Source: Williamsia maris
GTDB taxonomy: Bacteria > Actinomycetota > Actinomycetes > Mycobacteriales > Mycobacteriaceae
Assembly: GCF_024171815.1 (NCBI RefSeq)
Contig: NZ_JAMTCJ010000004.1
Span: 434,001 to 498,000, forward strand
Direction: 5' to 3'
DNA: 64,000 bases
Part shown: in pieces, positions 2 through 10,160 of the stretch
Layout: each line of letters opens with the position of its first letter
How positions within the stretch are numbered: the stretch's first letter is position 1
The notes under the pieces: model-generated
What the model was told of the DNA's origin: nothing
The model's input: the letters and a program-made list of their open reading frames with translations, nothing else
Databases searched by the model: none
Translations under genes and position numbers: made by a program

Positions 2-793
2 ACCGAGGACACGCACGGCCCGTTGGGAATCGGCTACGCCGAACTCCCGCCCGCCCCGACACCGCCCTCGCACCGCGACGCCGCCGACGCCTGGATCGAC
101 CTCACCACCGAGCGCCCCGGCGAGATCATCGGGTTGGTCACCGGCCCCCTGACCAACCTCGCGATCGCCATCGACCGCGATCCCGGCCTGCCCTCCCGGT
201 TGCGCCGTCTGGTGGTCATGGGTGGGTCGTTCCATCACCCGGGCAACACCACGCCCACCTCGGAGTGGAACATCGCGGTGGATCCCGAGGCGGCGCAACG
301 GGTGTTCGCCGCGTTCGGCCACTCCGGGGCGCCCAGCCCGATCATCTGCCCGCTCGATCTCACCGAGACGATCGTGATGACCCCCGATCACCTCGGTCGT
401 CTGGCCGCGTCGGCGGGCAGCACGCCGGTCGAACAGCCGACGCCGGTGGACGAGCCGGGAACGCGATCGGTGGCCAGCCGGGCGGTCGTCCGGCACCTGG
501 TCGACGCCATCCGCTTCTACTTCGAGTTCCACGCCGACCACGACGAGGGCTACATCGCCCACATGCACGACCCGTTCGCCGCCGCGGTTGCACTCGATCC
601 GACCATCACCACGACCCGCCCGGCGTGTGTGGACGTGGAACTCGTCGGCACGTTGACGCGCGGGACGACGGTCGCCGACGAACGTGGGATGTGGGGCCGG
701 GAGCCCAACGCCGCGATCGCCACCTCGACCGATCCGGAACTGTTCTTCGACGAGCTGATCGAACGCGTCGCGGGGCTCGCGGCACGGTTCTAG
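2..793 (+). CDS. Nucleoside hydrolase (IUNH family), 5'-truncated by window edge
   Basis: Inosine-uridine preferring nucleoside hydrolase family; such enzymes split ribonucleosides into free base and ribose in salvage pathways. The frame is open to the window edge, so the N terminus with the Ca2+-binding Asp-rich loop is outside and 263 residues are visible. Family blocks seen in order are GPLTNLA, VVMGGSF, EWNIAVDPEAAQRVF and MHDPFAAAVALDP, the last two carrying the usual substrate/metal-site Asn, Asp and His-Asp residues. It converges on the glycosyltransferase gene and their stop codons share the four bases CTAG, leaving no room for a terminator between them. The nucleoside preferred cannot be read from the sequence. 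A link to the neighbouring nitrogen-response cluster is inference from position only. Confidence 0.85.
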   Translation, partial: TEDTHGPLGIGYAELPPAPTPPSHRDAADAWIDLTTERPGEIIGLVTGPLTNLAIAIDRDPGLPSRLRRLVVMGGSFHHPGNTTPTSEWNIAVDPEAAQRVFAAFGHSGAPSPIICPLDLTETIVMTPDHLGRLAASAGSTPVEQPTPVDEPGTRSVASRAVVRHLVDAIRFYFEFHADHDEGYIAHMHDPFAAAVALDPTITTTRPACVDVELVGTLTRGTTVADERGMWGREPNAAIATSTDPELFFDELIERVAGLAARF

Positions 794-1890
794 CGGATCG
801 CCATCGGGTGATCGGCGTAGAAACGCAGATGCGCCCGAGCTGCGGCTGCCCACGTCATCGACTCCGCCAGTCGTCGTCCCGACGCGACGCGATCGGCATC
901 GACGGTCAACGCGTCGGCCAGGGCATCTGCGAGCTGTGGCACGTCGGCGGCGTAGGAGACGCTGTCGCCGAACACCTCCCGCAACACCGGTAGATCGCGC
1001 GTCACCACCGGACGCCCGGCGGCGAGGGCCTCCATGGCGGCGAGACCGAATCCCTCTTTGGTCGACGGGAAGGCGAAGACGTCCGACGCCGCGACCAGCG
1101 CGGGCAGGTCGTCGTCGTCGACGGTGCCCAACACCGTCGGTGTGACATCGAGTTCACCGCGCCGACGGTCGAACTCGGCGCGGTAGTCACGGTAGTCGAA
1201 CAGGGTCTCCCCGCCGGCGAACACCAACGACAACCCCGGATGGGTGGTCTGGAACAGGGCGTACGCGTCGAGCAGATCGATGCTGCCCTTGCGGGGTTCG
1301 ATGCCGCCGACGGCGAGCACGTAGGGGCCGAGCTGCGAACGCCAACGCTCGCGTGCGGCGATCGCGTCGGGGGTGTCGTCGGCGGCGTCGTTGAACCGCT
1401 GTGCGGCAACCCCGTTGGGGATCACGGTGGGATGCAGGTCCCACCCGTCGACGATCTCGTCCGCCACGGCACGGGACACGCAGATCCGTGCGTAGGGGTC
1501 GACGATCGCCTTCTCGTGGCATTCGGCGAGGACCGGGGTGGTGAACTCGTCGAGGTGGTGCACGGTGCGGATGCACGGCCCGACGGCGTTGGCGCTGATG
1601 CAGTCCTGGGCGTGGACGATGTCGTAGTGCTGTCGGTCGAACGCCCGGCGCATGGTCTCGATCGAGCGGACGATCCGATCGGTGACGGTCTCGTCGGGGA
1701 TCGTGGCGAACTCGACGAGCCGCAACCGGACCCGGGGGTCGACCCTGCGGAAGAAACCGCTGTCGGACCCGCGGGCGAGGGACCACACCGTCACGTCGGC
1801 CCCGGCGTCGGCGAGGGCCTCGGCCAAGGCCAGGGTGTGCACCACCCCGCCGCGCGGTTTGGTCGAGTACGTGATCAGCGCGACGCGCAT
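790..1890 (-). CDS. MSMEG_0565-like glycosyltransferase, last gene of the Nit1C-type cluster
   Basis: A 366-residue GT-B, family-4-like glycosyltransferase. The N-terminal half begins MRVALITYSTKPRGGVVHTL, the Gly-rich acceptor-side loop. The C-terminal half has VGGIEPRKG and the EX7E nucleotide-sugar motif in KEGFGLAAMEALAAGRPVV (about residue 270). There is no signal peptide or membrane span, so it should be cytosolic. The ATG was chosen over an upstream GTG because GAAGGGG lies 6 nt before it; the GTG would overlap the preceding gene. It lies 11 bp after the nitrilase-like gene and ends the operon. Mycobacterial versions of this nitrogen-starvation cluster carry a glycosyltransferase at the same place (recalled). 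Donor and acceptor are unknown; a glycosylated small-molecule product is plausible inference. Confidence 0.8.
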   Translation of the reverse strand: MRVALITYSTKPRGGVVHTLALAEALADAGADVTVWSLARGSDSGFFRRVDPRVRLRLVEFATIPDETVTDRIVRSIETMRRAFDRQHYDIVHAQDCISANAVGPCIRTVHHLDEFTTPVLAECHEKAIVDPYARICVSRAVADEIVDGWDLHPTVIPNGVAAQRFNDAADDTPDAIAARERWRSQLGPYVLAVGGIEPRKGSIDLLDAYALFQTTHPGLSLVFAGGETLFDYRDYRAEFDRRRGELDVTPTVLGTVDDDDLPALVAASDVFAFPSTKEGFGLAAMEALAAGRPVVTRDLPVLREVFGDSVSYAADVPQLADALADALTVDADRVASGRRLAESMTWAAAARAHLRFYADHPMAIR

Positions 1891-1901
1891 ACCGAACCCC
1901 T

Positions 1902-2753
1902 TCACCGTTCGACGGCCGGGACGGGGTCGAGGACGTAGGTCTCGCTGCGCCGTTCGCCGAGATGGTCGAGGACCCTTCTGGCGCGGGTGATCTCGGCCTC
2001 CACGTCGAGGGTGACCGTCGCCAGACCGCCCTTCGAGCGGGTGGTTGCGAGGATCTCGCCGCCGGGACCGACGACCTTGGCCTGTCCGAGGAACCGCAGC
2101 GAGCCCATCACCCCGGTCTGATTCGACGACACGAGGACGACCTGGTTCTCCGCGGCCCGGGCGGCGTCGTAGAGGTCGAACAGACGGGACTGGCGGTCGG
2201 CGGGCAGGCGGGAGGCGCGGTCGGTGACGCTGGCCGGCCAGGCCGACAGGGCGGCGATGATGTGCGCACCGTCGAGTGCGATGGTGCGGGCGGCCTCCGG
2301 GAAGGTCTTGTCGTAGTCGATGAGCATCCCCATCCGGCCGACCGGACTGTCGAACGCGGAGAACGAGTCCCCGGCGGCATACGCCAGGGCCTCCCCGGCC
2401 GGTTGGTGGACCTTGCGGTGGGTGCCGTGCACCCCGTCGCCGCTCACGCAGATGGCCGAGTTGTAGGTCAGTCCGTCGGACGCCTCGGCGTATCCGACGC
2501 AGACCGTCATGGCCCCGGCGGCGGCGATGACCGCCGCGATCTCGGGTCCGTCGGCGTCGAGGGCCGACGGCAGCTCGGCGACGTCGGGGGCGTTCAGATC
2601 ACCGATGTACCCGCCCAGCGACGCGTCGGGGAACACCAAAAGGTCGACGCCGTCGCGGGCGGCGGCCTCGATGATGCCGACCGCCTTCGCGACGGCTCGA
2701 TCGACGTCACGACCGAAGTGTGCCGCGACCGCGCCCACAGTGATCGGTGCCAT
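1902..2753 (-). CDS. Nitrilase-superfamily paralogue lacking catalytic Cys and Glu (putative pseudoenzyme)
   Basis: A 283-residue carbon-nitrogen hydrolase fold protein, clearly paralogous to the nitrilase at the other end of the cluster: LVFPDASLGGY against LVFPEAAIGGY, RKVHQPAGE against RKVHQPLGE, and MLIDYDKTFPEAARTIALDG against LQICYDKAFPEAARSMALDG. The superfamily needs a Glu-Lys-Cys triad. Here Lys114 is present, but the general-base Glu is Asp43 (codon GAC) and the nucleophilic Cys is Asp146 (codon GAC). Without the Cys thiol the normal thioimidate/acyl-enzyme chemistry is impossible, so I infer a regulatory, scaffold or ligand-binding role, possibly pairing with the active paralogue. 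Length is normal and the frame is intact, so this is not a decaying pseudogene. It sits 57 bp after the GNAT-AIRS gene and 11 bp before the glycosyltransferase. Confidence 0.85.
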   Translation of the reverse strand: MAPITVGAVAAHFGRDVDRAVAKAVGIIEAAARDGVDLLVFPDASLGGYIGDLNAPDVAELPSALDADGPEIAAVIAAAGAMTVCVGYAEASDGLTYNSAICVSGDGVHGTHRKVHQPAGEALAYAAGDSFSAFDSPVGRMGMLIDYDKTFPEAARTIALDGAHIIAALSAWPASVTDRASRLPADRQSRLFDLYDAARAAENQVVLVSSNQTGVMGSLRFLGQAKVVGPGGEILATTRSKGGLATVTLDVEAEITRARRVLDHLGERRSETYVLDPVPAVER

Positions 2754-2810: not shown

Positions 2811-4262
2811 TCACGCTCGACCGAGACCGGTCACTCCGGCGGTGACGGCCACCGTGGTGACCCCGTCCGGCCAGCGCAGGCGCACCCCGGGCTCGGACGT
2901 GAGACTCCCGCACACCGCACCGACGACCCCGTCGGGGACGGGGTGCCCCGCGAGGCCGGCCGGTCGGTCGACAGCCTCTGCGGTGAGCATCGCGAATCCG
3001 GGGAAACACGTGAGCCACGAACCCATCTCGGCCGCGGCGGGCCGCGGGATGGACGCGACCTCGAGTTCGGCCCCGGCGCCGCAGGCCTCGGCCATCATGC
3101 CGGTGGTCCCGGCGATACCGGCCATGCTGACGTCCTTGGCCGCGCGTGGCGACATCGCCGCGACCAGACCGGTCATCGTGCGGAGATCGGGTCCGCTGCG
3201 GGTGCTCGTCGAGTCCCACTGGCGACCGTGGTGGCCGGGACGCCATGATCCGGTGAGGTCGGCGGTGAGACGGATCGCGTCGCCCGCGGAGGCTCCCCCG
3301 GCCCGTACCGGGGTGCTGGTGGAGCCGAACGCCGTGACCGCCAGCGATGCGGGGACCCCGACCTGGGTGTGGCCACCGAGCACCGGCACACCCCATGCCT
3401 GCGACGCCTGCGCGATGCCCCGGATGATGCGGGTCAGCAGCGACCGTGTCGGTGCGCCCACCGCGTCCAACATGCCGCTGGGGGCAGCACCCATGGCGCT
3501 GAGATCGTTGATGTTGACCAGGACCGAACACCACCCGGCCCATTCCGGGTCACGTTCGACCATCGACGGGATGATCGCGTCGCACGCCGCGATGATGTCG
3601 CTGCCGGGGACCGGTACCCCGTCGTCCCCGCGGAAACCGTCGGGGCCCAGTCCGCCGGACTGCGCACGCAGCGGGTCGAGTACCTCGGCGAGGAACGACT
3701 TGGTGGCGTCGGCCACGTCCTGGATGCCGTGTAGTGGCCACCGCATCGACCGGTGCGCGATCCCACCGACGACGGTCGACCCGTGGCTCTCCCAGCCCAG
3801 CCGGGCGAACATCGGTCGGTGTCGCTCCTGCACGGTGGCGTCGAATCGCAGCACGCCGCGCGCCTGGGCGTGGGCGCAGGCGGCCCGGACGAGGGCCGGA
3901 CCGATGCCGGCACTGTGTGCGGCGCCGTCCACCACGAGCCGGCTGCCGGTCCACCACCCGATGTCGGTGTCGCCGTGCGGTGCGAGCCGGACACCGCCCA
4001 GGACCCCGCCGTCGAGGGAATGTGCCAGCAGCACGATCATCCGCGGATCGTCGTCGATCTCGTCGTGATCGGTGGAGGCGAAGATGCGTTGATCGTCGAC
4101 GAACGTCGTCCGCCGCAACCGGTGATAGGCGTCGAGGTCGGCAGGCGACCCGGCGGGCCGGATGATGAACGGCGGCCGGTGGTCGGAGTCGTCACGGCGG
4201 TGTCCGGACAGGATGGACATCTCGGCGGTGGATGTCCGCAGGGTCGGTGCGTGGTGGTCCAC
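2811..4262 (-). CDS. GNAT N-acetyltransferase fused to AIR-synthase-like domain (MSMEG_0567-like)
   Basis: A 483-residue two-domain protein. Residues about 25-180 are a GNAT domain; its acyl-CoA loop is seen as HSAGIGPALVRAA and is followed by the LRFDATVQ strand. Residues about 195-483 resemble the PurM/ThiL/HypE (AIR synthase-related) ATP-binding fold, with the hallmark NDLSAMGAAPSGMLDAV. Cyanobacterial Nit1C clusters encode these as separate proteins (Sll0786 and Sll0787, recalled); here they are fused, which argues for consecutive or coupled reactions. I chose the GTG 4 bp after the radical SAM stop because GGGGGA precedes it; an in-frame ATG 42 nt further in is the alternative. Substrate unknown: an acetyl or acyl transfer plus an ATP-dependent activation of an amide or formyl oxygen is a family-based guess. 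Confidence 0.82.
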   Translation of the reverse strand: MDHHAPTLRTSTAEMSILSGHRRDDSDHRPPFIIRPAGSPADLDAYHRLRRTTFVDDQRIFASTDHDEIDDDPRMIVLLAHSLDGGVLGGVRLAPHGDTDIGWWTGSRLVVDGAAHSAGIGPALVRAACAHAQARGVLRFDATVQERHRPMFARLGWESHGSTVVGGIAHRSMRWPLHGIQDVADATKSFLAEVLDPLRAQSGGLGPDGFRGDDGVPVPGSDIIAACDAIIPSMVERDPEWAGWCSVLVNINDLSAMGAAPSGMLDAVGAPTRSLLTRIIRGIAQASQAWGVPVLGGHTQVGVPASLAVTAFGSTSTPVRAGGASAGDAIRLTADLTGSWRPGHHGRQWDSTSTRSGPDLRTMTGLVAAMSPRAAKDVSMAGIAGTTGMMAEACGAGAELEVASIPRPAAAEMGSWLTCFPGFAMLTAEAVDRPAGLAGHPVPDGVVGAVCGSLTSEPGVRLRWPDGVTTVAVTAGVTGLGRA

Positions 4263-4266
4263 CGCG

Positions 4267-5322
4267 TCATCCCCCGACGTTCTGCAACACGCTGCAGGCG
4301 CCACAGGCCGCGCAGCCGGCGTTCTGGTCGGCACCGGCCATCCCCGCGAGCTGCAGGTGTTCGGCAACGCGCCGCGAGACCTTCTCCACGACAGCCGGAT
4401 CCGGGGCCCGCGCGGAGTCGACGTCGACCGCGAGCGTGCCGGGATGCGGGCGGAACGGGACGACGAACGGGTAGACGCCCATATCGATCAGCTCCCGTGC
4501 GCCGTCGACGACATCGTCAGGGTCCTCACCGAGCCCGATCAGCAGGTAGGTCGACACCTGGTTGCGGCCGAAGACCCGTACCGCCTCGCGCCAGGCCGTC
4601 CGGTACTCGTCCAACGGCACGGTGGACTTGCCGGGCATCCACCGACGCCGGACGTCGTCGTCGAGGGATTCGACGTGGATCCCGATCGATCGGGCACCCG
4701 CGTCGTACAGCTCGGTGATGGTCGCCAGATCGGCGGGCGGTTCGCACTGCACCTGGATGGGCAGGTCGGGAACCGCCGCGCGCACCGCGGCCACGCAGCG
4801 CGCGAGATGGCGTGCACCACGGTCACGACCGGCCGAGGTGCCGGTGGTCATCACCATCTGCCTGACCCCGTCGAGGCGGACCGCCGCCTCGGCGACCTCG
4901 GCGAGCTCGGCCGGCTTCTTCACCGCGACCGTGGCACCCGAGCGCAGTGACTCCTCGATGGAGCAGAACCGACACCTCTGATCGGCGTCGTATCGGATGC
5001 AGGTCTGCACCACGGTGGTGGCGAGCACGTCGCGGCCGTGCAGCTTGGCCAACTTCTCGTATCGCACCCCGTCGTGCGTCGTCAGGTCGTAGAACCGTGG
5101 ACGATCGACCGCCTCGACGTCGAGTCCGGTGTCGACACCGTCGAGCAGGACCCGATCACCGTCGAACACATAGGGACTGAGCGGGTTCCGGGGAATCGCG
5201 GCGTTGAGGCCGTCGATCACCAGGTGTCCGTCGTCGCTGGGACCGGCACCGGCGGTGCGGGTCACCGGCGGCCGTCCGCGAACGCCCAACAGCGCGAGGT
5301 CGACTCGGGTGGATACCGACAT
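4267..5322 (-). CDS. MSMEG_0568-like radical SAM protein with CX8CX2C and a C-terminal Cys cluster
   Basis: A 351-residue radical S-adenosylmethionine enzyme. The cluster-binding cysteines are C108, C117 and C120, spaced CX8CX2C in QTCIRYDADQRCRFCSIEES, unlike the canonical CX3CX2C. Further family features are TTGTSAGRDRGA after the first strand and GIHVESLDDDVRRRW in the barrel, and the length fits a compact TIM-type barrel. The extreme C terminus ends NAGCAACGACSVLQNVGG, a CX2CX2C motif (C337, C340, C343) that could hold an auxiliary Fe-S cluster. AGGAG lies 7 nt before the ATG and overlaps the upstream stop region. It is 9 bp from the Sll0783-like gene and 4 bp from the GNAT-AIRS gene, so translation is probably coupled. 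The reaction is unknown; it is a core member of Nit1C clusters. Confidence 0.85.
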   Translation of the reverse strand: MSVSTRVDLALLGVRGRPPVTRTAGAGPSDDGHLVIDGLNAAIPRNPLSPYVFDGDRVLLDGVDTGLDVEAVDRPRFYDLTTHDGVRYEKLAKLHGRDVLATTVVQTCIRYDADQRCRFCSIEESLRSGATVAVKKPAELAEVAEAAVRLDGVRQMVMTTGTSAGRDRGARHLARCVAAVRAAVPDLPIQVQCEPPADLATITELYDAGARSIGIHVESLDDDVRRRWMPGKSTVPLDEYRTAWREAVRVFGRNQVSTYLLIGLGEDPDDVVDGARELIDMGVYPFVVPFRPHPGTLAVDVDSARAPDPAVVEKVSRRVAEHLQLAGMAGADQNAGCAACGACSVLQNVGG

Positions 5323-5331
5323 GGGTGTCTC

Positions 5332-5856
5332 CTAGACCATGTACGTGGAGTTGATGATGGCTCCCTTGCGTGCGTAGTGGATCAGCGCATCCTGCACGTC
5401 GAGGGGGTGGGCGGGGATGACGCCCTCGATGAGGTCCTCTTCGCGACCACCGTGCAGCGCCAGGCCGAATCGGCAGCAGTACACCGTGCCGCCCTCACCG
5501 ATGAACGTGGCGAGTGAGTCGTTGATGTTCTGCTCGCCCGGGAATCCGGAGTCGCCGGTGGTCGGGAAGCCGCGCGTGGCAAGGCAGTTGATCGCACCCG
5601 GTCCGTAGAAGTACAGCGCCGACTCGAAGCCCTTGCGCAGCGCACGGGTGGCCTGCAGGACGGCGACGAAGCTCACCGACGACTCGTGGGCGATGCCGTG
5701 CACCAGCGTGAAGTACGTCTCGCCGTCCTCGGCCTGGTAGTCGGGGAACAGCTTGGTGCCGCCGTAGATGTTCGACCCCTTGGGCAGGGACGGGTGCGGG
5801 ATCTCGGCGAGGGATTTCTTGATGTTCTCGGCGATGGTGTCGTCGATCTCGGTCAT
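5332..5856 (-). CDS. MSMEG_0572/Sll0783-like nitrogen-starvation response protein
   Basis: A 174-residue soluble protein matching, by recognition, the MSMEG_0572/Sll0783 family, the name-giving small protein of Nit1C clusters. A nitrogen-stress role was proposed for the Synechocystis member (recalled). The layout SALYFYGPGAINC (Cys91) then GTVYCCRFGLALHG (Cys127-Cys128) resembles DsrE-like alpha/beta folds, in which a conserved Cys may carry sulfur or a small ligand; that comparison is mine. No signal peptide or membrane span. AGAGGA precedes the ATG by about 7 nt. A 119-bp gap upstream, the longest inside the cluster, could hold an internal promoter. The radical SAM gene follows after 9 bp. 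The biochemical function is not established to my knowledge. Confidence 0.8.
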   Translation of the reverse strand: MTEIDDTIAENIKKSLAEIPHPSLPKGSNIYGGTKLFPDYQAEDGETYFTLVHGIAHESSVSFVAVLQATRALRKGFESALYFYGPGAINCLATRGFPTTGDSGFPGEQNINDSLATFIGEGGTVYCCRFGLALHGGREEDLIEGVIPAHPLDVQDALIHYARKGAIINSTYMV

Positions 5857-5975: not shown

Positions 5976-7451
5976 TCAGGTTTCCCGGGCACTCGGGGTG
6001 ATCCCCGCGTCGGCCGCGGCGAACGAGCTGCGCCGCACCTTCCCGGCCGCGTTGCGCAGAGGGCGCCGGGCGACGTGCACCCGCCCGGGTCGGCAGACGG
6101 CGGCGAGGTGACCGAGCGTGAAGTGTTCCATCTCGCCGGGATCGACGTCGGAATCGGCGATGTCGAGGACTGCGGACACCGTCTGCGCACCGGTGTCGTC
6201 GCGCACCGCGTAGACCACTGCGTCCCGGATCGCGGGGTGGGCGACGATCGCCTGCTCCATCCGTGCCGGATAGACGGTGCGGTCACCGCATCGGATGGTG
6301 TCCGACCGGCGGTCGATGACGGTGAGGAATCCGTCGTCGTCGACGACGCCCATGTCGCCCAACGTGTCCCAGCCGTCGCGGGTTCGCGCAGACCGGTGAC
6401 CGACATAGGTGTAGCGGGCACCGCCGGCACGGCGCATCCAGATCTGGCCGATGACCCCCGGCGCCACGGCCGATCCGTCGTCGGCGCGGACGGACACCTC
6501 TGTACCGCCGATGGGACGACCGACACTGCCCGGGTGGGCCAGCCAGTCCGCCCCGTCGATCATGGTCAGCCCGTTGGACTCACTGCCCGCGTAGACCTCG
6601 TGCACACGCTGCGGGCCGAGCCAGTCGATCAGCGCGCGCTTGTCCCCCTCGGGACACGGGGAGCCCATGTGCAACACCGATCGGATCGACGAGGTGTCGG
6701 CGGCGGCGAGATCCGCTTCGGGCAGTCGCATCAGCCGGTGGATCATGCTCGGCGACAACAACGCCCACGTGATGCGGTGCCGGGCGACGATGTCGGTGAA
6801 GGTGTGCTCGTCGAAGTCGTCGGCCAGCACCAACCGGTGGTCGGTCATCAGGCCCCGGAACGCGTAGGTGAACGTCGCCGAATGCCACAGCGGACCGCAG
6901 ATCAGCTGGACCGCCCGGGCCGGTAGGAACGGGGCGACATCGGCATCGGGATCGAACCGGGCGGGAGCGGTGCTGCGGATGACCTTGGGTCGTCCCGTGC
7001 TGCCCGACGAGGTGGAGGCCTTCCAACAGGACGCCGACGCGTCGGGCAGGGCGGCGTCGGACATCGAGTCGTCGGCCCGGTGCCCCGCGGGGACCCATCC
7101 GATGGTGTGGTCGGCGGGTCGGGCTCCGATCGCCAGTGCGGGACGGTCGACTCGTTCGAGCACTTCGCGCTCCGCCCGCGCCATGTCCGGGTCCATCGGC
7201 TGCGGTGTGGCGCCGAGTTTCCAGACGGCCGTGCACGCGACGACGAACTCGATGCAGGTGGGCAGGGCGATGGTCACCAGGTCGTCGGCGCGGACACCAC
7301 GGGCCCGGTAGTCACGGGCCAGCCGGTTGCCCGCGCGATCGAGCTCGGCGGCGGTGAGTACACACCGGTCGTCGGCTCCGATGACCACGGGGTGGTCCGG
7401 TTCGGCTGCCGCCCTCGCGGAGATCAGGCGGGAGATCGATCGCCGGGCCAC
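5976..7451 (-). CDS. AMP-forming acyl/aryl-CoA ligase-like enzyme within the Nit1C-type cluster
   Basis: A 491-residue ANL-superfamily adenylating enzyme. The ATP loop is SSGSTGRPKVIRS, the adenylate motif region is VYAGSESNGLT, the hinge region is DTLGDMGVVDDDGFLTVIDR, and the C-terminal catalytic lysine region is NAAGKVRRSSF. It should activate a carboxylate as acyl-AMP and pass it to CoA or another acceptor. The GTG is 4 bp after the flavoprotein stop; a longer frame upstream lies inside that gene and was rejected. A ligase is not among the Nit1C genes I recall from cyanobacteria or proteobacteria, so it may mark an actinobacterial version that first activates an acid, for example one released by the nitrilase. 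The substrate cannot be predicted from sequence alone. Confidence 0.83.
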   Translation of the reverse strand: MARRSISRLISARAAAEPDHPVVIGADDRCVLTAAELDRAGNRLARDYRARGVRADDLVTIALPTCIEFVVACTAVWKLGATPQPMDPDMARAEREVLERVDRPALAIGARPADHTIGWVPAGHRADDSMSDAALPDASASCWKASTSSGSTGRPKVIRSTAPARFDPDADVAPFLPARAVQLICGPLWHSATFTYAFRGLMTDHRLVLADDFDEHTFTDIVARHRITWALLSPSMIHRLMRLPEADLAAADTSSIRSVLHMGSPCPEGDKRALIDWLGPQRVHEVYAGSESNGLTMIDGADWLAHPGSVGRPIGGTEVSVRADDGSAVAPGVIGQIWMRRAGGARYTYVGHRSARTRDGWDTLGDMGVVDDDGFLTVIDRRSDTIRCGDRTVYPARMEQAIVAHPAIRDAVVYAVRDDTGAQTVSAVLDIADSDVDPGEMEHFTLGHLAAVCRPGRVHVARRPLRNAAGKVRRSSFAAADAGITPSARET

Positions 7452-7455
7452 GGGG

Positions 7456-8775
7456 TCAGCTACCGACCGCGAGGCGCAGGCCGCCGGCGGTGCCGCGCCC
7501 GCGGTCGATGATGGTCTCGGCGATGTGCCGGGCATCGTCGTCGATGCCGAGGAACCGACCCGAACCCCAGGTGTGCATCCACGGCAGACCGATGAACGAC
7601 AGCCCGGAGACGCCGGTGACACCGCGGGTCTGCATCGGTCGGCCGCCGCCGTCGAACGCGCTCGCCTCGATCCAGCGGTAGTCCGGTCGGTACCCGATGG
7701 CCCAGATGATGGTGGTGATGCCGGCCGCGGCCAGGTCGAGCGTCTCGGGATCGGTCGACGGACGCCACACCGGCTCGTACCGCGACGCCGGCGGGGCGTC
7801 GATCCCCTCGCGGGCGATGTGGGCGTCGATGTCGGCGCAGATCGAGTTGTAGACCGAGTCGGCCTTGTCCAGCGAACTCGTCAGGGTCGGGGCGAAGGTG
7901 AGGCCGGTGTCGCGCCCGTCGGTGAGGGTTCCGTACAGGGACATCCCCTCGAGCGCGAAAGCCCTCAGGTCGACGTCACGTCCGCCGTCACGACCCGTGA
8001 CGTAGTGGTTCGTCTTCTCCCGGGCGGCCTTCCCACCCGGGTACTGCTGGGCCGGGGTCTCGTAGAGGCCCATGTCGGCGAGCCAGGTCATGCAGTCGCG
8101 GCCGCGGTAGAAGCGGGCCACCCGCGGAGCGGTTCCGATGGCCAGGTGGACCGACCGTCCCTCGAGGTGGAGGTCCTCGGCGATCTGTGCGCCGGACTGC
8201 CCCGAGCCGACCACCAGTACGGCGCCGTCGGCGAGTTGGTCGGAGTTGCGGTACTCCTCGGAGTGCAGCTGACGGATCGCGGGATCCAGGGTCGGCGCGA
8301 AGGTCGGGACGACCGGGACGGGATAGCCGCCGGTGGCGACGACGACCTCGTCGCAGGTGAGGATCTCCGGCCCGTGCTCCCCCTCGGTCATGAGCTCGTA
8401 GCCACCGTCCTCGCCGTGCGACAGGCGCGTGACCCGGGTGCCGGTGCGCAGCGGCGGGGAGAACGTGTCGAGCCAGCCGCGCAGCCATTCGACGACCTCG
8501 TCGCGGGTCATGAAACCGTCGGGGTCGGGGCCCTGGTAGGCGTATCCCGGCAGCCGGCAGTGCCAGTTGGGGGTCACGAGGGTGAAGTTGTCCCAGCGGG
8601 TGTCGGACCACTGGTGCATCGGGGTACCGGCCTCGACGACGAGATGGTCGATGTCGTTGGCGCCGAGATACCAGCTCACCGACAGGCCGGCCTGTCCGCC
8701 GCCGATCACGATGACCGGCACGTGGGTGGTGTCGTCGGAGGCGAGGTGTTCGGGGGTCGCGGGCGATGTGCTCAT
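7456..8775 (-). CDS. MSMEG_0569-like FAD/NAD(P)-dependent oxidoreductase (flavoprotein monooxygenase-like)
   Basis: A 439-residue class-B flavoprotein. An FAD-binding Rossmann loop VIVIGGGQAG sits at residues 21-30 and a second dinucleotide loop VLVVGSGQSGAQIAE at about 195, as in flavin-containing and Baeyer-Villiger-type monooxygenases. WDNFTLVTPNWHCRLPG lies between, and the C-terminal ATG-like motif is IIWAIGYRPDY. Such enzymes use NAD(P)H and O2 to oxygenate N or S atoms or carbonyls. It corresponds to the flavin oxidoreductase at one end of Nit1C clusters (NitH in the naming I recall). AGGGAC precedes the ATG. It follows the MSMEG_0570-like gene after 76 bp and precedes the ligase gene by 4 bp. 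The substrate is unknown; nitrogen oxygenation would suit the cluster but is inference. Confidence 0.85.
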   Translation of the reverse strand: MSTSPATPEHLASDDTTHVPVIVIGGGQAGLSVSWYLGANDIDHLVVEAGTPMHQWSDTRWDNFTLVTPNWHCRLPGYAYQGPDPDGFMTRDEVVEWLRGWLDTFSPPLRTGTRVTRLSHGEDGGYELMTEGEHGPEILTCDEVVVATGGYPVPVVPTFAPTLDPAIRQLHSEEYRNSDQLADGAVLVVGSGQSGAQIAEDLHLEGRSVHLAIGTAPRVARFYRGRDCMTWLADMGLYETPAQQYPGGKAAREKTNHYVTGRDGGRDVDLRAFALEGMSLYGTLTDGRDTGLTFAPTLTSSLDKADSVYNSICADIDAHIAREGIDAPPASRYEPVWRPSTDPETLDLAAAGITTIIWAIGYRPDYRWIEASAFDGGGRPMQTRGVTGVSGLSFIGLPWMHTWGSGRFLGIDDDARHIAETIIDRGRGTAGGLRLAVGS

Positions 8776-9139: not shown

Positions 9140-10025
9140 GGGCCAACCCGTTCCATGCGGCGGTGTGGTCGGCGTCGGTCAGCGCACCGTAGACGTCGGG
9201 ACGGCGATCACGGAGATGGAACATGCCGCCGCGCATCGCACGGAAGGTGCCCTCGATGTCGATGTCGGCGACCGCCATCCCGCTACCGAGAAGCGTGGTG
9301 GCGAGGATGTTCCCGCCGGGATCGACGACCTTGGCGTTGCCGACGTAGTTGAGCGACCCGAAGGTGCCCGACTGGTTCGACGCCACCCAGAACACCTGGT
9401 TGTCCAACGCCCGGGCCATGTCGAAGAGGTTGAACCGGTAGGTCCACCGGTCCTCCTGCAGATCGGTCGCGGTCGCGGTCCGCGCGGCCGGCCACGCCGA
9501 CAGGCTGGCGATGATCTCGGCCCCGTCGAGCGCCATCGAGCGTGCGGCCTCGGGAAATGCCTTGTCGTAACAGATCTGGAGACCGACGCGTCCGACCGGT
9601 GTGTCGAAGACCGGGTACTCCGACCCGGCCGAGTACGACATGTTCTCACCGAGCGGCTGGTGCACCTTGCGGTAGCTGCCGTAGATCCGCTGCCCGTCGA
9701 GCACCGCGGCCGCGTTGTACCGGGTCTCGCCGTCACGGTCCAGCTCACAGAATCCGATGGCGACGACGAGATCGCCCACGATGTCCTGGACCCGACGGAT
9801 CTCCGGTCCGTCGAGCGAGATCGCCGGGGGCAGTGAACGATCGGTGTTCTTGACCGTGTCGCCGTGGTTGCCCAGCGACGACAGGTACCCGCCGATGGCC
9901 GCCTCGGGGAAGACGAGGAACTCGACGCCCTGGTCACGGGCCTGCGTGGTGAGCGTCTGGATCAGGGCATAATTCTGGTCGAGGTCGCGGGTGAAGTTGG
10001 CGGCGACCGCTGCGATGGTTGTCAT
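9132..10025 (-). CDS. Nitrilase-superfamily hydrolase with intact E-K-C triad, first gene of the Nit1C-type cluster
   Basis: A 297-residue carbon-nitrogen hydrolase. The catalytic residues are E41 in LVFPEAAIGGY, K120 in SYRKVHQPLGE and C152 in GLQICYDKAFPEAARSMALDG. Family members hydrolyse nitriles to acids and ammonia, or cleave amides. It is shorter than the roughly 330-residue Nit6803-type nitrilases, so amidase activity is equally possible. The ATG has GAAGGA 6 nt upstream; longer readings extend into the promoter and were rejected. This is the promoter-proximal gene, and a GlnR-box-like element lies about 55 bp before its start, which points to induction under nitrogen limitation. A catalytically defective paralogue lies near the other end of the same cluster. 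Confidence 0.88.
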   Translation of the reverse strand: MTTIAAVAANFTRDLDQNYALIQTLTTQARDQGVEFLVFPEAAIGGYLSSLGNHGDTVKNTDRSLPPAISLDGPEIRRVQDIVGDLVVAIGFCELDRDGETRYNAAAVLDGQRIYGSYRKVHQPLGENMSYSAGSEYPVFDTPVGRVGLQICYDKAFPEAARSMALDGAEIIASLSAWPAARTATATDLQEDRWTYRFNLFDMARALDNQVFWVASNQSGTFGSLNYVGNAKVVDPGGNILATTLLGSGMAVADIDIEGTFRAMRGGMFHLRDRRPDVYGALTDADHTAAWNGLARA

Positions 10026-10119: not shown

Positions 10120-10160
10120 ACCCTCACACGGTTCACGTGTACGAAATGTGTAGTGCGCGA

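Follow-up and report, generated by a model that had tools for sequence, protein, structure and literature searches.

Gene A, a nitrilase-fold gene in the 64,000-nucleotide stretch of Williamsia maris DNA analysed here (the window), carries aspartate at the positions of both the nucleophilic cysteine and the general-base glutamate of its in-cluster paralogue, gene B. Judged by alignments, trees and substitution rates, the Asp146-carrying family to which A belongs is ancient and the trait is under selection, which suggests a lasting, non-standard role. We lean, tentatively, towards reading A as an ancient pseudo-nitrilase that acts as a non-hydrolytic partner of B in the step that B performs, likeliest through co-assembly with it.

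A begins with ATG and runs on the minus strand for 283 residues with no internal stop. Its CN_hydrolase match (PF00795) spans residues 15-252 at 109.7 bits, the alpha-beta-beta-alpha fold of that family is recognisable, and the predicted single-chain fold is sound. Set against the catalytic members of the nitrilase superfamily, A keeps the lysine (Lys114, codon AAG) and Glu121 and lacks the Glu base at position 43 and the cysteine at position 146; in the predicted model, Asp146 is the first residue of the helix following strand 139-145. The nitrilase superfamily reaction needs both a Cys nucleophile and a Glu base, and its thioester route cannot run without them. By its residues, A would thus count as a pseudoenzyme, in which catalytic residues are lost while fold and selection are kept. 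The original prediction had aligned Asp146 and Asp43, both encoded by GAC, with Cys152 and Glu41 of B, and its residues, codons and numbering were all correct, only the strand going unmentioned; it had also described a retained Lys, an HQPxGE loop and an otherwise undamaged gene of 283 residues, in agreement with Lys114, the sequence HQPAGE, the intact reading frame and the sound predicted fold. Copies at 98% identity in two further genomes of the genus, together with the family-wide occurrence of Asp146, rule out sequencing error or local mutation. Metal binding at D43/D146, an idea that came from the His found at position 43 in some rows, was dropped because Gly and Gln also occur there. The label "MSMEG_0566-type" for A derives from the gene order of the cluster and from family names. 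The features of the cluster are collected in Table 1.

Table 1 Features of the A/B cluster, in window coordinates.
Feature	Position	Strand	Basis or remark
MSMEG_0565-family glycosyltransferase	790..1905	minus	TIGR04047 over cut-off; immediately downstream of A, the two overlapping by 4 nt
A: MSMEG_0566-type D-nitrilase, 283 aa, D43/K114/E121/D146	1902..2753	minus	ORF, PF00795 match, alignment
A codon 146, GAC (Asp), nucleophile position	2316..2318	minus	Codon and predicted model
A codon 43, GAC (Asp), general-base Glu position	2625..2627	minus	Codon and alignment
MSMEG_0567-type GNAT/AIR-synthase-like protein	2811..4367	minus	TIGR04045 and TIGR04050 over cut-off; true start likely inside listed ORF
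MSMEG_0568-family radical SAM protein	4267..5322	minus	TIGR04043 over cut-off
MSMEG_0572/Sll0783-family protein	5332..5856	minus	TIGR04044 over cut-off
AMP-binding, acyl-CoA synthetase-like protein	5976..7622	minus	Profile match; in some clusters only
MSMEG_0569-family flavin-dependent oxidoreductase	7456..8775	minus	TIGR04046 over cut-off
MSMEG_0570-type small protein, 92 aa	8852..9130	minus	Frame differs from listed 113-aa ORF
B: in-cluster paralogue, intact E41/K120/E127/C152, 297 aa	9132..10025	minus	ORF, PF00795 150.6 bits, alignment

The window cluster contains the gene types of the Mycolicibacterium smegmatis MSMEG_0565-0572 ('gpr') cluster plus the AMP-binding protein. It is Nit1C-like, in that the MSMEG_0572, radical SAM, GNAT/AIRS and flavoprotein families all score over their cut-offs and lie together; a homologue at the same place as the 92-residue protein carries the annotation 'MSMEG_0570 family'. 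Across 80 loci (the best 80 of 420 relatives), A is accompanied by other cluster genes in a few gene orders. The AMP-binding gene is inserted in a minority of relatives, for example in 9 loci that share one gene order and in 6 that share a second. The glycosyltransferase match begins at most 168 nt from the A match in 110 of 110 loci measured; exceptions beyond those 110 are L224, where the glycosyltransferase is on another contig, and genome G426, which has none over cut-off. B directly precedes A, with match ends 2-69 nt apart, in 8 of 10 hand-picked loci. All four Rhodococcus plasmid records that were found have two matching places, and on R. qingshengii pN9T4-1 the genes run 0572-0568-0567-B-0570-0569-A-0565. 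One contig titled Acidobacteriaceae (BOG_194; L056) carries an actinobacterial-type A at 78% identity together with cluster genes, and is possibly mis-binned.

Other classes of the phylum hold ten divergent clusters (L187-L195 and L197) with MSMEG_0572-, radical SAM-, GNAT- and AIRS-like parts, nine of which (L187-L195) include the glycosyltransferase; in L187, disulphide-reductase-like and cupin/HTH genes lie in between. Searches with A and B (phmmer) found no A/B-like nitrilase in the stretch examined of these ten, indicating that the cluster core does not need one. The idea that the glycosyltransferase is tied only to A, or that A is the sole substitute for NitC, was rejected, since clusters with B only and L187-L195 also have the glycosyltransferase.

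B was taken from the ATG at 10025, the longer listed ORF beginning further upstream at 10136. Its codons 41, 120 and 152 are GAG, AAG and TGT, and its motifs read FPEAAIGGY, RKVHQPLGE and QICYDKAFPE, as compared with FPDASLGGY, RKVHQPAGE and LIDYDKTFPE in A; the two proteins are 49% identical over 269 aligned residues. We compared 61 A rows (carriers of Asp146) with 65 B rows (E-K-E-C, more than 50% identical to the window's B), both thinned to 90% identity. Only 4 of the 266 alignable positions are near-fixed (at least 97% in both A and B) with differing residues, namely 146 (D in A, C in B), 191 (L/R), 201 (A/L) and 267 (E/D). With the nucleophile among only four strict differences, the Cys-to-Asp pattern is more than chance. 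Positions 191 and 201 both fall within the predicted helix 187-203 of A, which we take to be part of the nitrilase dimer surface. K114, W172 and P173 do not vary across the 61 thinned A rows; E121 is present in 60, with Asp in the remaining one (the G381 gene). In A, Ala predominates (45 of 61) at position 119, where at least 97% of B rows have Leu. Position 85 is Cys in at least 97% of A rows and Ala, Thr, Val or Cys in B.

These residues bear on a different reading, in which A is a re-purposed enzyme with a new centre that works without cysteine, made up of D146, K114 and E121 (an Asp nucleophile, or Lys plus two carboxylates) and serving a different pathway step. We consider this unlikely, though it deserves serious attention: the invariant K114, W172 and P173, the near-invariant E121, the Leu-to-Ala change at position 119, a constraint on A equal to that on B, the place of A beside the glycosyltransferase wherever the distance was measured, and the D-K-E-D set kept even in the orphan A gene of G426 all speak for it. 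Against it, selection is not strict on the acid/base part of the old site, as position 43 drifts through D, G, H and Q, and we know of no natural nitrilase-fold enzyme with an Asp nucleophile. That the D-nitrilases are nitrilase-fold enzymes with a new Asp146/Lys114/Glu121 catalytic site, acting on what B consumes or produces in a step that is non-hydrolytic or does not use cysteine, is likewise a doubtful proposition.

How far the trait is fixed was assessed in several sets of genomes. Six peptide patterns were scanned against a collection of 84,980 species genomes, and the best 80 of the 420 relatives found were retained; together with 8 genus-sample genomes these make up 88 A rows, all scoring better with A than with B, in which six genomes are represented twice. 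All 88 rows have D146, K114 and E121, and position 43 is Asp in 81 and His in 7. One of the six search peptide patterns contained D146, an ascertainment bias, and the count was therefore repeated on evenly drawn genomes using a whole-protein search. Of 345 genomes sampled from the class, 45 encode a protein resembling A or B (E 1e-50 or better), and 31 have a gene nearer A than B; all 31 genes carry D146, K114 and E121, with Asp, Gly or Gln and never Glu at position 43. A sample of 396 genomes from the phylum gave 9 with a match at E 1e-30 or better, and the only Asp146 gene outside the class there is that of G381, with residues D43/K114/D121/D146.

An alignment of 248 nitrilase rows, leaving out matches shorter than 230 residues, contains 125 rows that by similarity are nearer A than B; 113 of these have Asp146 and the other 12 have Cys. 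The 113 had been picked by Asp146 itself and would be circular as proof of fixation, hence the sorting by similarity only. Lys114 is present in all 113, and Glu121 in 111, the remainder being the Asp of the G381 gene, which is present twice. Position 43 is D in 101, G in 7, H in 4, Q in 1 and E in none; codon 146 is GAC in 110 and GAT in 3; none of the 113 rows has an internal stop. One Cys row (L244) contains an internal stop sign, the B row of L099 is partial, and the B of L254 ends with its contig before position 43. The 12 Cys rows nearer A represent six E-K-E-C genes of four genomes from other classes (G107, G128, G150 and G388), each present twice, and score only slightly higher with A than with B (273 against 254 bits, for example). 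These six nitrilases are intact, at L112-L115, L117 and L121, and may be the nearest living relatives of A's Cys ancestor. The Cys genes of G107 and G128 sit in a cluster-like locus, in genomes where no protein scores over cut-off with TIGR04047.

A branch with SH-aLRT support of 96 separates the Asp rows from the far Cys-type outgroups in a tree of 130 rows. A tree of 74 rows, computed with columns 43 and 146 masked and the far outgroups removed and still including the six Cys genes nearer A, splits 35 Asp from 39 Cys rows with support of 100/96. One change is placed on the masked tree at position 146 and five at position 43, which drifts across the Asp clade through Asp, Gly (twice), His and Gln. 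The outgroups being of Cys type, Cys to Asp is the likelier direction. The original prediction had proposed asking whether D/K/D is fixed among orthologues, with a Cys146 orthologue as the case that would speak against it: D146 and K114 are indeed fixed, position 43 is never E and varies among D, H, G and Q so that D/K/D as a whole is not fixed, and no Cys146 orthologue lies inside the Asp clade, the six A-nearer Cys genes falling outside it on the tree.

Selection on the two genes is closely similar. Invariant positions among the thinned rows number 59 of 266 in A and 55 of 266 in B, and mean entropy is 0.87 and 1.02, respectively. Comparison of the window's genes with eight relatives gave dN/dS values of 0.04-0.20 (A) and 0.05-0.19 (B). 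By these measures, A is as constrained as B. The earlier view that the substitutions were selected holds, in the light of the fixation of D146, the single well-supported Asp/Cys split and a dN/dS of A that matches that of B. A decaying relic is hardly credible as a reading of A: 14 of the 45 nitrilase-bearing genomes of the class sample lack the gene, as might be expected of such a copy, but its dN/dS is well below 1, 59 positions are invariant, and internal stops are absent from its 113 rows. It is very improbable that A works as annotated, as an ordinary carbon-nitrogen hydrolase or aliphatic amidase. The PF00795 match, a homologue annotated 'carbon-nitrogen hydrolase family protein' and the name 'aliphatic amidase' given to MSMEG_0566 in the accessible parts of PMC4222082 and PMC4617892 are in keeping with such an enzyme, yet both the Cys nucleophile and the Glu base are absent from the 88 rows (best 80 of 420 relatives plus 8 genus genomes) and from the 31 class genes.

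The occurrence of A and B is asymmetric. Within the class sample, 30 of the 31 A-bearing genomes have an in-cluster B with Cys; 29 of these B genes are full E-K-E-C, the other being the L254 gene cut at its contig end. A Cys-type gene without A occurs in 14 of the 345 genomes, and A without B in one. Thus, A depends on B in occurrence, and B does not depend on A. The original prediction had considered a paired active and inactive nitrilase within one cluster unusual; the pair is real, although far from peculiar to this genome. Among the best 80 of 420 relatives, B lies alongside A in 72 loci (one partial); six of the other 8 are on short contigs or near a contig end, and in the remaining two, L062 and L070, B is elsewhere in the genome. 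These two, Rhodococcoides trifolii (L062) and Kitasatospora arboriphila (L070), were candidates for A without B and were rejected as such when a whole-genome search found B beside a flavoprotein gene, A having stayed with the cluster core and the glycosyltransferase. G426, a genome 98% complete, has a single orphan A, and a search of the genome found neither B nor a TIGR04044 protein, nor any TIGR04047 protein over cut-off. This orphan (L239, 9342-10205) has D43, K114, E121 and D146 and is followed by a galactose-1-epimerase-like gene. Conversely, G434 is one of the 14 genomes that have the Cys type only. Six A-bearing genomes belong to its genus and the B genes of all seven group together, which makes a loss of A in G434 probable. 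B therefore seems able to work without A.

That A instead acts as an independent ligand-binding sensor or adaptor, partnered not by B but by the glycosyltransferase or some other enzyme of the cluster, we judge improbable. The MSMEG_0565-type gene adjoining A in every locus measured, the two genomes in which A stayed with the core and the glycosyltransferase while B lay elsewhere, and the absence of a specific A-B distance correlation agree with it. However, A is not required for the glycosyltransferase to be present, as all 14 B-only loci examined show, and a single CN_hydrolase domain fills the 283 residues, leaving no extra regulatory part. Distances were compared over 61 thinned clusters: beyond the whole-cluster signal there is no A-B correlation (partial r -0.11), and A correlates with the radical SAM gene at 0.39 and with the flavoprotein gene at 0.45. 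This lends no support to the hetero-oligomer that the original prediction had suggested; that suggestion, like the sensor named beside it, stays a hypothesis.

The reading of A as a partner of B is the best supported, on the grounds of the asymmetry of occurrence, the position of B directly before A in 8 of 10 loci and the two strict differences in helix 187-203. On this reading, A would have retained the nitrilase fold together with a charged pocket formed by Lys114, Glu121 and Asp146, in which Asp146 may replace the lost Glu as counter-ion of Lys114, a residue that would otherwise be without its usual acidic neighbour. The Cys-thioester/Glu-base reaction would be impossible for A, and hydrolase activity is presumably absent. 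A would then serve the step of B, itself a putative activity, in the actinobacterial Nit1C-like ('gpr') nitrogen-starvation cluster, likeliest with A and B co-assembling through the nitrilase dimer surface so that A might stabilise or gate B. Several points count against this partnership: the lack of an A-B specific distance correlation; the constant neighbour of A being the glycosyltransferase (110 of 110 loci) and not B; the orphan A of G426; a conservation of K114, D146 and nearly all E121 that appears to exceed what a pure scaffold would need; and the six Cys-type genes of other classes that score slightly nearer A than B. These points keep both the re-purposed centre and the independent sensor in contention.

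The fixed Asp at the nucleophile position in A's clade corrects the amidase annotation carried in databases and papers. The pairing of an active-type with a disabled-type nitrilase also offers a clean handle on what the cluster makes or breaks, the two roles being separable. Were the retained Asp-Lys-Glu centre catalytic, it would be new chemistry on a very common fold.

The gpr cluster of M. smegmatis (MSMEG_0565-0572) has the same eight gene types as the window cluster, and MSMEG_0571 and MSMEG_0566 are, by family names and gene order, the putative orthologues of B and A, respectively. According to the available parts of PMC6039565 and PMC4222082, this cluster is GlnR-dependent and induced by nitrogen starvation; the former states that the phenotype of the eight-gene operon could not be assigned to single genes. 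Both genes respond to nitrogen limitation, the values tabled in the portions accessible being 4.06 for MSMEG_0571 and 2.96 for MSMEG_0566 in PMC4617892, and 48.04 and 8.94, respectively, in PMC4222082. MSMEG_0566 appears in the accessible text of PMC4617892, PMC4222082 and PMC6039565 as an aliphatic amidase or putative aliphatic amidase, text which makes no mention of active-site loss. The literature searched, mostly without subscription papers, contains no title or opening of an abstract that describes such a loss in A's family; as subscription papers lay mostly outside the search, this is no proof of novelty. PMC6039565 also proposes, in the part available, that translation continues from MSMEG_0571 (B) into MSMEG_0569, the terminal UGA of the former being decoded as selenocysteine. 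The stop codon of B is TGA in 101 of 102 orthologues, but A usually ends in TGA as well (104 of 110). Read-through past the B stop ends before 90 residues in 61 of the 102 and reaches 500-560 residues in 30; given these early ends, a fused B-MSMEG_0569 protein is not conserved in this set.

Among other nitrilase-fold proteins, the amidase PH0642 of Pyrococcus horikoshii (1J31, 6YPA) differs from A in that the natural enzyme has a Cys nucleophile and Glu; in the accessible descriptions, the nucleophile is missing only in the laboratory variant C146A. The heteromeric NIT4A/NIT4B2 nitrilase of Sorghum provides a precedent for two nitrilase paralogues in one complex (PMC5154151), though that pair is of plant NIT4 type and the available part of the paper reports no Cys-to-Asp subunit. 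A further parallel in gene content is Nit1C (nitBCDEFGH in Pseudomonas; the sll078x genes in Synechocystis), whose parts correspond to those of the window cluster by family names and by the descriptions in the accessible part of PMC11049912: MSMEG_0572 to NitB, the radical SAM protein to NitD, the GNAT and AIR-synthase-like parts to NitE and NitF, and the flavoprotein to NitH, with NitG also among the correspondences. The class studied here has the A/B pair and a glycosyltransferase instead of the NitC of Nit1C. A and B score 36.9 and 39.0 bits with the Nit6803/NitC family (TIGR04048) and fall outside it, and no NitC-type nitrilase scores over the cut-off of 502.6 bits in the 30 genomes searched, the window's included, the best reaching 248 (G128). 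Thus, the A/B pair stands where NitC stands in Pseudomonas.
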